The translations under genes were made by a program, and so were the position numbers. From the NCBI GenBank assembly GCA_025350695.1, contig JANXXI010000064.1, positions 1 through 42,615 on the forward strand: a DNA stretch of 42,615 nucleotides, written 5' to 3'. Of this stretch, positions 3,849 through 8,154 are shown piece by piece (the first letter of the stretch is position 1; each line of letters opens with the position of its first letter). The notes under the pieces are model-generated. The model ran no database searches. It was not told the DNA's origin and saw only the letters and a list, made by a program, of their open reading frames with translations. The stretch is from Acidobacteriota bacterium. Its GTDB lineage: Bacteria; Acidobacteriota; Terriglobia; Bryobacterales; Bryobacteraceae.

Positions 3849-5288
3849 ATGCGTAACATTCTTTTAGTAGCCACCCTTGCCGTCGCGACGCAAGCTATCG
3901 AAATCACTTCGCCGGTGGAATTCCAGGTCGTTCAACGCGCGGATCACAATCGCGCCGACATCAAAATAACCGGCAAGGCAACAGGCAATATCGAAGCCCG
4001 CGTTGTCAGCCGCTCCGGAACCGTACTGCCGGGTCTCGATTGGAAGCCTCTAGGGCCTGCGCGTTCCGGGGCCTTTAGCGGGTCGATCGCGCAAGTGCCC
4101 ATAGGCGGGCCTTACACGCTTGAAGTGCGGGCGGCCGGACAAACTGCCTCCGTCAAGAACATCCTTGTTGGCGACCTGTGGATTCTCGCGGGACAGTCTA
4201 ATATGGAAGGTGTTGGAAACCTTACCGACACCATGCCGCCACATGAGATGATCCACAGCTTCGATCAAAGTGACGTCTGGCAAGTGGCTACCGAACCGCT
4301 GCACTCGTTGCCCGATTCGGCGGACCCTGTCCACTGGCGCAAGAACCAAGAAGGCAAACTGGAACGGCTAATCGGCGACGCCAAAGCAACGTATATGCAG
4401 ACCCGCAAAAAAGGCGCCGGCCTGGGTTTGCCGTTTGCTGTCGAGCTGTTTCAACGCACCAACGTTCCCATCGGCCTGATCCCTTGCGCGCATGGTGGCA
4501 CGTCGATGGCTCAGTGGAATCCTGAGCTTAAATCCAAAGGCGGCGACTCGCTTTATGGATCCACGATCCGGCGCTTCGATGCGATCGGAGGCAAGGTTGC
4601 CGGCATCCTCTGGTATCAGGGCGAATCCGACGCCTCGCCCGTGCCCCTCGGCGTTTTTGCGGATAAGTTTGAGAAGCTAATCGCCGCCTTTCGCGCTGAC
4701 TTCAAGCAACCCAACCTGCCGTTCTACTACGTGCAAATCGGCCGTCATGTGGCGGCGAACAACTTCGTCGAGTGGAACAAGATTCAGGAACTGCAACGCA
4801 ATGCCGAGGCAATTCCCAACACTGGGATGATCGCCTCGATCAATTCGACGCTTGATGACGGCATCCATGTCGGAACTGCGGACCAAAAGAAACTTGGCCG
4901 CAATTTCGCAATGATGGCTTGCCACGACCTGTTCCCCGGAGTGGGCGCCTGTCGAGATTATCAGCGCGGACCGCGTCCAAGTGCGATTACGACCGTGGGC
5001 GAAGGCCCGAAGTTTGCCGTACGCGTGAAATTCAATTCAGTGAACGACAAGCTGCGAGCCGATGGGCGAATTTCCGGCTTCACCATTTTGAACAAGGACA
5101 GCCAGCCGGTGATGGCGATCTACAAAGCAGTCGTGGATCCGCAGGATCCGACGGCCGTGCTGCTTTACATCTCCGGCAAATTACCAGAAGGGGCGCAGTT
5201 GATGTACGGGTACACGCGCGACCCGATCTGCAATTTGGAAGACGCCTTGGGTATGGCGGTTCCAGTGTTCGGCCCGCTTCCCATTTAA
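3849..5288 (+). CDS. Secreted SASA/DUF303-type carbohydrate esterase (sialate O-acetylesterase-like)
   Basis: A 479-residue exported esterase with signal peptide MRNILLVATLAVATQA. An N-terminal beta-rich region (about 20-108) precedes the SGNH-like hydrolase core. Family motifs are GQSNMEG (Ser117 as nucleophile), FAVELFQRTNVPIGLIPCAHGGT, WYQGESDA, and a C-terminal Asp-His block DDGIHVG that would complete the triad. The C-terminal ~120 residues form another beta domain. The family removes acetyl groups from sialic acids or acetylated xylan; the substrate cannot be read from sequence. Its stop TAA overlaps the next ATG (TAATG), indicating translational coupling to the HELFH protein. No strong Shine-Dalgarno is visible before the ATG. 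Confidence 0.88.
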   Translation: MRNILLVATLAVATQAIEITSPVEFQVVQRADHNRADIKITGKATGNIEARVVSRSGTVLPGLDWKPLGPARSGAFSGSIAQVPIGGPYTLEVRAAGQTASVKNILVGDLWILAGQSNMEGVGNLTDTMPPHEMIHSFDQSDVWQVATEPLHSLPDSADPVHWRKNQEGKLERLIGDAKATYMQTRKKGAGLGLPFAVELFQRTNVPIGLIPCAHGGTSMAQWNPELKSKGGDSLYGSTIRRFDAIGGKVAGILWYQGESDASPVPLGVFADKFEKLIAAFRADFKQPNLPFYYVQIGRHVAANNFVEWNKIQELQRNAEAIPNTGMIASINSTLDDGIHVGTADQKKLGRNFAMMACHDLFPGVGACRDYQRGPRPSAITTVGEGPKFAVRVKFNSVNDKLRADGRISGFTILNKDSQPVMAIYKAVVDPQDPTAVLLYISGKLPEGAQLMYGYTRDPICNLEDALGMAVPVFGPLPI

Positions 5289-5803
5289 TGCCTTCCATAA
5301 CAGGCACTACGATCCGCATTGAGTTCAGGCCCGAACTGACGTCATGGCGCGGAAAACTCCTGAGTGGAGATCCTCGCGGCGAGCAGATTCACGCCACGTC
5401 TTTCCTTCGAAAGCGGTTGATCGTTTTGGATAGCGAACTCGCGCAGGATTGGCCGGAATTGAGCCGGATCTTGGTACACGAACTGTTCCACTTTGCCTGG
5501 GTGCGGTTGGGCAATCCGATCCGGTTGTCGTACGAGGATTTGTTGCGAGGTGAGTTGAAATCGCGGGCACGAGGGGAGTTGGGCTGGTCGGCGGAGTGGC
5601 GTAAAAAGGCTCTAAGGCCGACCGATGTCGCCGAGCGAAACCGCAAATGGCGCGAGTATATGGCCGAGAGCTTTTGCGACACCGCCGCGTTTCTCTATTC
5701 CGAGTGCCCCCACCATGACGAATACACGCTAAAGAGCCGCTGGCGGCAGCAACGAATGCGTTGGTTTGCCCTACTGCTAGAAAAACGACCCATTCAACTC
5801 TAA
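5288..5803 (+). CDS. Small zincin-like protein with HELFH motif
   Basis: A 171-residue protein, start chosen at ATG 5288 because it overlaps the previous TAA as TAATG; the open frame extends upstream only as a shadow of the esterase gene. Around residue 60 lies ILVHELFHFAW, an HExxH zinc-metallopeptidase motif. A downstream glutamate-containing helix, YMAESFCDTAAFLY (about residue 125), is placed like the third ligand region of gluzincins. There is no signal peptide or transmembrane segment, so it is probably cytoplasmic. I do not recognise a named family. Co-translation with a secreted esterase suggests linked expression but does not reveal a substrate. Peptidase activity is an inference from the motif only. 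Confidence 0.75.
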   Translation: MPSITGTTIRIEFRPELTSWRGKLLSGDPRGEQIHATSFLRKRLIVLDSELAQDWPELSRILVHELFHFAWVRLGNPIRLSYEDLLRGELKSRARGELGWSAEWRKKALRPTDVAERNRKWREYMAESFCDTAAFLYSECPHHDEYTLKSRWRQQRMRWFALLLEKRPIQL

Positions 5804-5906: not shown

Positions 5907-6515
5907 GTGCTCCGTCGTTCCCACATTCTCGCGGCTTGCGCACTGCTCGCGCTGACGGCTTGCTACAACGGAGAACAGGCGCGTTCAAAAGGCCTCAAGC
6001 CTGTCGAAAAACGCAATGCAGCGCCAAACTTTGCGCTGAAGGACGCCACTGGCAATCCGCTGAAACTGGCCGATCTCAAGGGCAAAGTCGTCCTGCTTAA
6101 CTTCTGGGCCACTTGGTGCGGGCCGTGCCGCACGGAAATTCCGATGCTGATTGAGCTCGAACAGAAATATCGCGATCAAGGGTTTGCGGTCGTGGGTGTT
6201 GCCATGGATGACGATGGTTGGAGCGTCGTCAAGCCCTACATGGAAAAGTCGAAGATCAACTATCGCATGGTTCTGGGCGACGCCATGATGGCCCAGCATT
6301 ACGGGGGCGTCGACTCGATTCCGCAGACATTCGTAATTGACCGCGAAGGTCGCGTTAGCGCCGTCCATATGGGCGTGATCCGGAAAAAGGAATACATTGA
6401 TGAAATTGAACAACTGCTTGTCCCGGCGCAAAATGCTCGGCTCGACGATGCTGGGCAGCCCGCTTCTTTTCCTGGGACAACAGAAGGGCCTGGGGCAAAC
6501 GAAGGCTCCCGCTAA
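5907..6515 (+). CDS. TlpA-family thioredoxin lipoprotein
   Basis: A 202-residue protein from a GTG start. The signal ends in a lipobox LTAC (Cys19), so it is a membrane-anchored periplasmic lipoprotein. The thioredoxin domain spans about 38-172 with redox motif WCGPC (Cys71, Cys74) and the cis-proline block SIPQTF (Pro139). Proteins of this type reduce or isomerise disulfides, often for cytochrome c or exported enzymes. The domain ends at DEIEQLL; the final ~30 residues (from VPAQNA) are low-complexity and exist only because the frame runs through the start of the next gene. That overlap is 116 bp and out of frame. First gene of an apparent five-gene operon. Confidence 0.9.
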   Translation: MLRRSHILAACALLALTACYNGEQARSKGLKPVEKRNAAPNFALKDATGNPLKLADLKGKVVLLNFWATWCGPCRTEIPMLIELEQKYRDQGFAVVGVAMDDDGWSVVKPYMEKSKINYRMVLGDAMMAQHYGGVDSIPQTFVIDREGRVSAVHMGVIRKKEYIDEIEQLLVPAQNARLDDAGQPASFPGTTEGPGANEGSR

Positions 6516-6993
6516 GTCTCCTTACCCAAAACCCGCGATAGATTTCACGCTTACCGATTCCACCGGCAAAGCCCAGAAGCTCAGCGACTACAAGGGTAAA
6601 GTGGTGCTGCTCAATTTCTGGGCCACTTGGTGCGGGCCGTGCAAGATTGAAATTCCTTGGTTCAACGAATTCCAGGATAAGTACAAAGCGCGCGGGTTTT
6701 CTGCCTTGGGCGTGGCGATGGATGACGAGGGTTGGGAGATGGTCCGGCCGCATCTTGCGAAGAACAAGATTTCTTATCCGATTATGGTTGGCAACGAGGC
6801 GCTGGCGGATAAATACGGCGGAGTGGAATCGCTGCCCACCACTTTTATCATCGACAGGCAAGGCCGCATCACATCGATGCATGTTGGGTTAGTATCGAAG
6901 GGAGATTATTCGAATGAGATTGAAAAGCTACTGGGTCAATCTGGCCCCGGCCCTTCTGCTAAGCAGCCTCCTAGCCCAGCCGGTCGCAAATAG
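6400..6993 (+). CDS. TlpA-family thioredoxin with Tat-like signal
   Basis: A 197-residue paralogue of the preceding gene, start ATG 6400 (a TTG codon directly upstream is less likely). The N-terminus has LSRRKMLGS followed by a hydrophobic stretch, a plausible twin-arginine signal, so this copy may be exported folded while its partner is a Sec lipoprotein. The thioredoxin domain is very similar to the neighbour: same KGKVVLLNFWATWCGPC block (Cys78, Cys81), GVAMDDEGW, and ESLPTTFIIDRQG with the cis-proline. Its start lies inside the codons for DEIEQLL of the first copy. Its own NEIEKLL codons contain the start of the third gene. The repeated arrangement points to tandem duplication. Confidence 0.88.
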   Translation: MKLNNCLSRRKMLGSTMLGSPLLFLGQQKGLGQTKAPAKSPYPKPAIDFTLTDSTGKAQKLSDYKGKVVLLNFWATWCGPCKIEIPWFNEFQDKYKARGFSALGVAMDDEGWEMVRPHLAKNKISYPIMVGNEALADKYGGVESLPTTFIIDRQGRITSMHVGLVSKGDYSNEIEKLLGQSGPGPSAKQPPSPAGRK

Positions 6994-7390
6994 CGTTCTT
7001 ACGGCCCAGGCTCCGCCGCACACCGTCTTGAAAAAAGGCGGCGAAGCGGAGATAAAAGTAATCGTCAGCCTGAGGCCGGGGTACCACGTGAACTCGAACA
7101 AGCCAGCGGATGATTATTTGATTCCGTTGCGGCTCTCGTTTGACACAACGCCCCTTGAGGCCGTGTCTGTTCAGTTTCCTCAACCGAAGATGGAAAAGTA
7201 CGCGTTCTCGGAAAAGCCACTGTCGGTTTATTCGGGGAGCTTCGAGATTAACGCCAAAGTGAAGGCCAAGGTCGATGCGCGCATGGGTATGAATTTCGCT
7301 AATGCTAAGTTGCGATATCAGGCTTGCGATGAAAATTCCTGCTTGCCCCCGAAAACTATCGAAGTTCGTATCCCATTTGATCTGAATTGA
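6914..7390 (+). CDS. Orphan DsbD N-terminal (alpha) domain protein
   Basis: A 158-residue exported protein with a hydrophobic N-terminus (APALLLSSLLAQPVA). Residues ~35-155 match the immunoglobulin-like alpha domain of DsbD: RPGYHVNSNKP near the start and YQACDENSCLPP, giving Cys138 and Cys143, spaced almost as in the DsbD pair. In full DsbD this domain receives electrons from the transmembrane beta domain and passes them to periplasmic partners. Here beta and gamma domains are absent from the window, so an electron donor such as CcdA would have to be elsewhere. The start overlaps the second TlpA by 80 bp. The stop TGA overlaps the next TTG start. The neighbouring TlpA proteins are its likely partners (inference). 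Confidence 0.82.
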   Translation: MRLKSYWVNLAPALLLSSLLAQPVANSVLTAQAPPHTVLKKGGEAEIKVIVSLRPGYHVNSNKPADDYLIPLRLSFDTTPLEAVSVQFPQPKMEKYAFSEKPLSVYSGSFEINAKVKAKVDARMGMNFANAKLRYQACDENSCLPPKTIEVRIPFDLN

Positions 7391-8154
7391 CACGGACTCT
7401 GCTGATACGGCCCGGGGCGATTGGCGACGCTATTGTGTCGCTACCAGCGCTTGAGTTTTTGCGCGGCGACTTCACAGAAGTATGGGCTCCCTCCGTGAAT
7501 TTGCCTCTGTTTAGCGGGGTGGCTGACAAGGTTCGGTCCATCGCTTCCACTGGACTGGATCGCATCGGCATATTCGACGAACCGGTTGAGAAGGCGCTGC
7601 TCGGGTTTGATCGAATCGTCTCCTGGTACGGGGCTAATCGCGATGAATTTCGCCAAGCCGTGCGTAATCTTCCCTTCGAGTTTCATCAGGCGCTACCGCC
7701 TGTGGACTGCGATTCGCATGCCGTCGATTTTTACCTTCGTCAAGTAGGTGGGCCGATGGGGGCCGTCCCGCGATTCCGCGTCTCAGCATCGAAGCGCAAC
7801 TTTATTGCCGTGCATCCATTTTCCGGCAGCCTCCGAAAGAACTGGCCGCTTGAAAACTTTCAGCAAATGGCTGCGAGGCTGCCATTACCGGTGGAGTGGG
7901 CTGCTTCGGCGGATGGCTCGCATCGCTTGAATGATTTGGGCGAGATTGCTAGTTGGCTTGCTTCGGCCCGGGCGTATCTTGGAAATGACAGTGGAATCAC
8001 TCATCTGGCCGCGGCAGTAGGCACTCCAGTGGTCGTGCTGTTCGGCCCCACCGATCCGGCGGTGTGGGCGCCGCGCGGCGCCTCAGTCAACATCCTTAAG
8101 ATGGAAGAGGCCCATGTTGCCCAAGTTACCGAAGCCCTGTGCCGCTTGTGTTAG
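7387..8154 (+). CDS. Glycosyltransferase family 9 (heptosyltransferase-like)
   Basis: A 255-residue cytoplasmic protein starting at TTG 7387, overlapping the previous stop (TTGA), which decides the start. The N-terminus LLIRPGAIGDAIVSLPAL is the nucleotide-sugar transferase entry motif of GT9. The C-terminal block YLGNDSGITHLAAAVGTP and VVLFGPTDPAVWAP is the ADP-heptose-binding signature of WaaC/WaaF/RfaF relatives. It is shorter than typical family members (~340), lacking part of the middle. Likely transfers a heptose or similar sugar in LPS core or surface glycan synthesis; LpxC in this window shows LPS is made. Why it sits behind thiol-redox genes is unclear. Confidence 0.85.
   Translation: MTRTLLIRPGAIGDAIVSLPALEFLRGDFTEVWAPSVNLPLFSGVADKVRSIASTGLDRIGIFDEPVEKALLGFDRIVSWYGANRDEFRQAVRNLPFEFHQALPPVDCDSHAVDFYLRQVGGPMGAVPRFRVSASKRNFIAVHPFSGSLRKNWPLENFQQMAARLPLPVEWAASADGSHRLNDLGEIASWLASARAYLGNDSGITHLAAAVGTPVVVLFGPTDPAVWAPRGASVNILKMEEAHVAQVTEALCRLC

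Follow-up and report, generated by a model that had tools for sequence, protein, structure and literature searches.

An out-of-frame overlap between tlpA and dsbD-alpha is conserved in the order Bryobacterales

In the Bryobacteraceae and in two other families of the order Bryobacterales, the gene for a stand-alone DsbD-alpha protein typically starts in the +1 frame within the codons for the last helix of the TlpA protein encoded directly upstream. The overlap has a consistent geometry, is conserved, and is constrained at the codon level at both its start and its stop; it is not an oddity of a single genome. On balance, the embedded start, which is kept by the order, probably couples the translation of TlpA to that of DsbD-alpha.

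The analysis departed from one locus of an Acidobacteriota bacterium (assembly GCA_025350695.1). The window, i.e. the whole stretch of DNA analysed, comprises 42,615 nucleotides (positions 1-42,615, forward strand, of contig JANXXI010000064.1). Four genes follow each other on its + strand. The first, tlpA1 (5907-6515), was assigned from sequence, Pfam matches and trees and encodes a thioredoxin-fold protein with a lipobox-like LALTAC. The second, tlpA2 (6400-6993), starts with an ATG (6400-6402) within the GAT (Asp) codon 6399-6401 of tlpA1, and the two genes share 116 bp in +1 (6400-6515), where the tail of tlpA1 faces the N-terminal region of tlpA2. A Shine-Dalgarno-like AAGGA (6387-6391) lies within tlpA1 codons, 8 nt before this ATG. 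The same arrangement recurs at the next junction. The ATG of dsbD-alpha (6914-6916) lies within the AAT codon 6913-6915 of tlpA2 (Asn172, in the predicted helix 167-179), 9 nt behind a GGGAG (6900-6904) that is likewise Shine-Dalgarno-like and embedded in tlpA2 codons, and the tail of tlpA2 overlaps the predicted DsbD-alpha signal peptide by 80 bp in +1 (6914-6993). Both embedded ATGs thus begin at the second base of an Asp or Asn codon in the last TlpA helix. The positions, phase and lengths of the two overlaps had been proposed in the original prediction, as had the identical phase of the two starts, and the window sequence and its open reading frames confirm them to the base.

The dsbD-alpha gene (6914-7390) is followed by a GT9 (heptosyltransferase-like) gene (7387-8154) with a TTG start and a 4-bp overlap (TTGA). 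With 255 aa, the GT9 product is short, and its top-scoring stretches fit the C-terminal part of the models only; a GT9 match is found close behind dsbD-alpha in many relatives. Upstream of tlpA1, a + strand open reading frame (4919-5803) carries an HExxH-like HELFH string in the region of about 5289-5803 and has no Pfam match at an E-value of 0.001. Its long form overlaps a SASA esterase gene out of frame, probably due to a listed start that is set too early.

The products of tlpA1 and tlpA2 share 45% identity (192 columns) and match the Pfam families AhpC-TSA and Redoxin. The W, C, P and C of the WC.PC motif are invariant in 36 aligned TlpA rows, as in a thioredoxin fold with CxxC, and the thioredoxin core was modelled with high confidence by AlphaFold2. 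The best solved relatives are 3gl3 (named DsbE-like) and ResA 4nmu. With 108.1 and 103.4 bits against a curated cut-off of 170, both proteins are relatives of the NCBIfam family ResA (NF002854), not members. They share the thioredoxin fold, the WC.PC motif and an export-like N-terminal region with TlpA/ResA oxidoreductases, but differ from these in that the last helix holds the start of the next gene and that TlpA carries an overprinted tail in most family loci. The lipobox Cys is present in at least 90% of the 36 rows and absent from tlpA2. Near its start (6400-6500), tlpA2 encodes the string SRRKMLG, which we take to be twin-arginine-like and which the inner copy of a locus from the same genus (L010) does not share.

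The third protein matches the Pfam domain DsbD_N (PF11412) with an E-value of 2.7e-9 and 37.5 bits (gathering cut-off 25). This match is common to DsbD-alpha and the N-terminal (alpha) domain of DsbD; here, the domain forms a stand-alone protein with an N-terminal signal-like region. C138 and C143 are invariant in 25 sequences. No NCBIfam match was found at an E-value of 0.001, nor did the family profile hit any solved chain at 0.01.

A search for DsbD-alpha yielded a match in 194 of 200 family genomes. One locus per genome, mostly the best-scoring one, was examined in 138 of them (130 from the main searches plus L141 and L241-L247; L140, which duplicates L099, was excluded), while 56 other matching genomes, mostly with weaker matches, were left out. 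Among the named relatives are Bryobacterales, Bryobacteraceae, Bryobacter, Paludibaculum, Candidatus Solibacter and Candidatus Sulfopaludibacter, in line with the placement given in the original prediction. The tlpA/dsbD-alpha junction overlaps by more than 4 bp in 134 of the 138 loci and in 60 of 61 genera, always in +1 and with a median of 80 bp; these locus counts are not independent, since the loci are related by descent. The overlap reaches at least 20 bp in 129 loci, and an overlap of more than 60 bp is conserved among the orthologues of 90 loci and 47 genera. Of 20 genomes found for other families of the order, 13, from two families, were examined, and 11 of these 13 loci (7/8 genera) overlap, again all in +1, with a median of 23 bp.

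Outside the order, the picture is different. Of 35 class loci, six lacked an adjacent TlpA-like match and were dropped, and none of the remaining 29 shows an overlap. Seven of the 29 (L249-L254, L266) look like other proteins by their C-terminal sequence and in two (L257, L259) the distance is about 400 bases, which leaves a close TlpA outgroup of about 20. In other classes of the phylum, a TlpA-profile match on the dsbD-alpha strand was found in one of 43 loci. The inheritance of the overlap that had been suggested from the window alone is borne out within the order by 145 overlapping junctions, all in +1. Homologues with separate genes, named beforehand as the case against it, are limited to four of the 138 family loci and two of the 13 other order loci, but make up all 29 class loci outside the order.

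The position of the embedded start was mapped to the columns of the aligned helix. In the family (138 loci), column 20 carries a +1-frame ATG in 77 loci and column 18 in 40; each of the other columns from 10 to 26 does so in 0-8 loci, and column 9, which belongs to the HVG motif outside the helix, in 26 loci. This clustering in columns 18 and 20 indicates that the position in the helix is more than chance. A quick tree, which covers 144 of 151 loci, places ten switches of the start between the two columns (42 column changes in total, a number that also contains misplaced anchors), in agreement with the earlier suggestion that the helix codons repeatedly supply a start. The codons that bear the start (n=134) are GAT (48), AAT (44), TAT (31) and CAT (5), together 128, whereas the same residues use the T-ending (xAT) codon elsewhere at a rate of 0.25-0.35. 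Similarly, the Shine-Dalgarno energy is -4.30 compared to -3.43 for a synonymous null and is the stronger one in 101 of 134 loci (p 3e-6). Both tests depend in part on the start caller, because it prefers an ATG with a Shine-Dalgarno site; of 129 called starts, 65 have only a 3-base Shine-Dalgarno match and one has none. Some automatic calls are doubtful, namely those of L016, L020, L025 and L031, where a further ATG lies upstream, and that of L228, which was called at a TTG.

A check that is free of the caller gave the same picture. A +1 ATG in helix columns 13-26 is present in 122 of the 134 overlapped family TlpA genes, in 7 of 13 from the order and 1 of 13 from the class, and in one of seven TlpA genes from the four family loci without overlap. 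An ATG in +2 was found in these columns in none of the overlapped family (134), order (13) and class (13) TlpA genes. The first tlpA gene of L027 (369-977, in the dsbD-alpha orientation) retains a +1 ATG at column 18, and its next gene starts elsewhere; this ATG is a possible relic of an overlap.

The other end of the overlap is constrained as well. An expectation that TlpA tails are longer than chance was rejected, as the reverse is seen: tlpA stops at a median of 25 codons compared to 51 for a synonymous-codon null (134 loci). An AQ site was recognised in 125 loci; 54 of these have their stop two codons beyond its Ala, and in most of the cases inspected this stop is made by a T-ending codon with Ser or Asn behind it. 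Of 76 usable cases, 58 have a T-ending codon after the AQ site (11.4 expected). This position is T-ending in 64 of 129 loci, compared to 7-29 of 129 at the other scored positions, not counting the AQ Gln, as no Gln codon has a final T. The position of the TlpA stop, close to where the DsbD-alpha signal peptide ends, is maintained in spite of the codon bias. Relative to the hydrophobic core (n=145), the stop lies after it in 93 cases, before it in 30 and inside it in 22, the last count being based on crude core limits. TlpA can be stopped in its own frame only if the next codon begins with AA, AG or GA (Asn, Lys, Ser, Arg, Asp, Glu), and a hydrophobic core has no such residues. The stop codons used are TAG (84), TAA (41) and TGA (9 of 134).

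As originally predicted, the TlpA tails are overprinted, i.e. read from the signal-peptide codons of the next gene. They consist of 25% Ala, 16% Gly, 9% Pro and 8% Ser and are modelled as coil (pLDDT 63-72) past the confident last helix 167-179 (AlphaFold2, 36 rows). Fourfold sites, when pooled, show greater similarity in the overlap (0.658 versus 0.514; 120 of 141 pairs used), but this holds for only 21 of 41 pairs with enough sites, and the comparison gives no clear sign of a residue-level constraint on the tail.

Two tlpA genes are present in six of the 138 family loci; the starts of the inner copies were chosen by eye. Both junctions overlap in +1 in the window (L009, 116 and 80 bp), in L010 of the same genus (92 and 86 bp) and in L024 of genus g47 (32 and 32 bp). 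In L027, L066 and L079, in contrast, each of the two junctions is either a 4-bp overlap or a gap. Of the four family loci that lack the overlap, three have a doubled tlpA, compared to three of the 134 that have it; doubling may be as likely to break the overlap as to keep it.

The second overlap had been explained by either a tandem duplication that copied the first or a start supplied repeatedly by the helix codons. The latter part stands; duplication may be the source of the double arrangement. Trees were built on part of the loci (88, 77 and 40 rows). The first copy (T1) of the window genus clusters with the single tlpA genes found in genus g5 (100/91 in the larger tree, 96/86 in the smaller) and the DsbD-alpha of the window genus adjoins g5 too (91/80), so T1 looks vertical. 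The second copy (T2) of the window groups with the long-branched T1 of L079, from another genus, in the larger tree (97/84), but falls into the 9-row group of T1 in the smaller one (91/90). A single clade of T1 and T2 was not recovered for the window, and a constraint to such a clade was not rejected (p-AU 0.228). With chances somewhat short of even, a diverged tlpA was inserted and the second overlap formed anew from the start in the helix codons. The separate placements of T1 and T2 in the larger tree are consistent with this insertion, as is the DNA past the helix, which cannot be aligned between the tlpA1/tlpA2 and tlpA2/dsbD-alpha junctions (p 0.558; 0.756 in L010). The p-AU value and the smaller tree argue against it, and so does L024, where the outcome is the same and the two copies stay within a single genus: its T1 and T2 form one group with the single tlpA of L076 (99/83 in the larger tree, 96/78 in the smaller). 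L076 pairs with T1 of L024, so T1 and T2 of L024 are not sisters.

It is doubtful that the overlap is a duplicable cassette, a unit of TlpA core, start-bearing helix and DsbD-type signal peptide. One tandem duplication of such a unit would place the start of a second TlpA within the first and give this copy a cleavable signal in place of the lipoprotein signal. The lipobox Cys is indeed absent from the inner copies of the window and L024, but L010, of the same genus as the window, has a Cys in this column. The signal region of the inner L024 copy finds the DsbD-alpha signals of its own genus at ranks 2, 4, 5, 10, 18, 30, 45 and 83 of 138 (36 nt), with the best match from another genus, and the junction similarity of L024 is not significant (p 0.088). 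Ranks in the window genus are mixed (1 and 84 of 138 for 54 nt, 27 and 76 for 36 nt). On the evidence of junction similarity and signal ranks, the cassette model was put aside as weak at best.

With regard to function, translational coupling is the likeliest role, as inferred from the arrangement. The Shine-Dalgarno-like site and the ATG of the next gene are embedded, out of frame by +1, in the last TlpA helix with the pattern K-x-[DE]-Y-x-[ND]-[ED]-I, whose Glu-Ile-Glu codons yield Met-Lys/Arg in +1 and provide the charged start of a signal peptide. As the hydrophobic core lacks polar residues able to complete a stop in the TlpA frame, TlpA often continues with a flexible tail of Ala, Gly, Pro and Ser to the end of the signal peptide, where its stop comes from a T-ending codon ahead of Ser or Asn. 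Ribosomes on tlpA would expose the internal start and other ribosomes would initiate there, such that TlpA and DsbD-alpha are matched; where an extra tlpA lies between tlpA and dsbD-alpha, this site has been retained at both junctions. Short-range termination-reinitiation is tied to overlaps of a few bases in the available text of PMC10666635. The stop in the window, 80 bases past the start, is too far for it, and internal initiation by other ribosomes seems the better guess.

Codon constraint at start and stop indicates translation of both genes; it does not establish a use for the overlap itself. It may instead be a frozen accident, real and old, whose start and stop must stay although it brings no benefit such as coupling. 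This is less likely than coupling and remains a serious rival, since long phase-1 overlaps are modelled without selection in the accessible part of PMC3887535. In addition, according to PMC10666635, the loss of a stop codon typically leads to long overlaps without translational coupling, which lowers the confidence in coupling, and the tail residues lack a clear constraint. On the other hand, the overlap has persisted while its start moved ten times between columns 18 and 20 on the quick tree, and the four family and two order loci without overlap show that it can be escaped. The tlpA/dsbD-alpha pair resembles the overlaps in these two sources, as far as described there, in being co-directional, in phase 1 and with the start of the second gene inside the first. 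It differs from them in exceeding 60 bp in 47 of 61 sampled genera, with start and stop at near-fixed codons.

A survey from 2008 (PMC2478687) considered 715 co-directional overlaps of more than 60 bp, accepted none as real and proposed a rule that flags such calls as errors; conserved overlaps slightly shorter than 60 bp are also mentioned there. By the same reasoning, the true start of the downstream gene would lie past the TlpA stop, all the more so as the DsbD-alpha signal peptide is a prediction. We consider such an annotation artefact very unlikely here. If DsbD-alpha is exported, as predicted, a start that lies clear of TlpA must still allow 14 residues ahead of the AQ site, and 131 of the 134 loci offer no such codon, the exceptions being L016, L051 and L070. 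Moreover, the +1 ATG sits at fixed columns and is nearly missing where the overlap is missing. The gene-length comparison of PMC2478687 aside, the pair passes on conservation and missing alternative starts. A programmed +1 frameshift at the TlpA stop, which would skip the signal peptide and fuse TlpA to mature DsbD-alpha, fits the constant +1 phase and the 54 stops near the AQ site, where a shift would enter the mature domain, but was set aside as highly improbable, given that the stop contexts inspected by eye share no slippery sequence, the stop codons vary and DsbD-alpha has its own start and signal-like region.

No published account of the tlpA/dsbD-alpha overlap was found in the titles and abstract openings among the matches listed in the literature searched. 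The pair allows the reality of long same-strand overlaps, and the reasons for their persistence, to be tested on one simple operon. It also bears on annotation, since trimming long overlaps by rule could remove the predicted DsbD-alpha signal peptide across much of the order.
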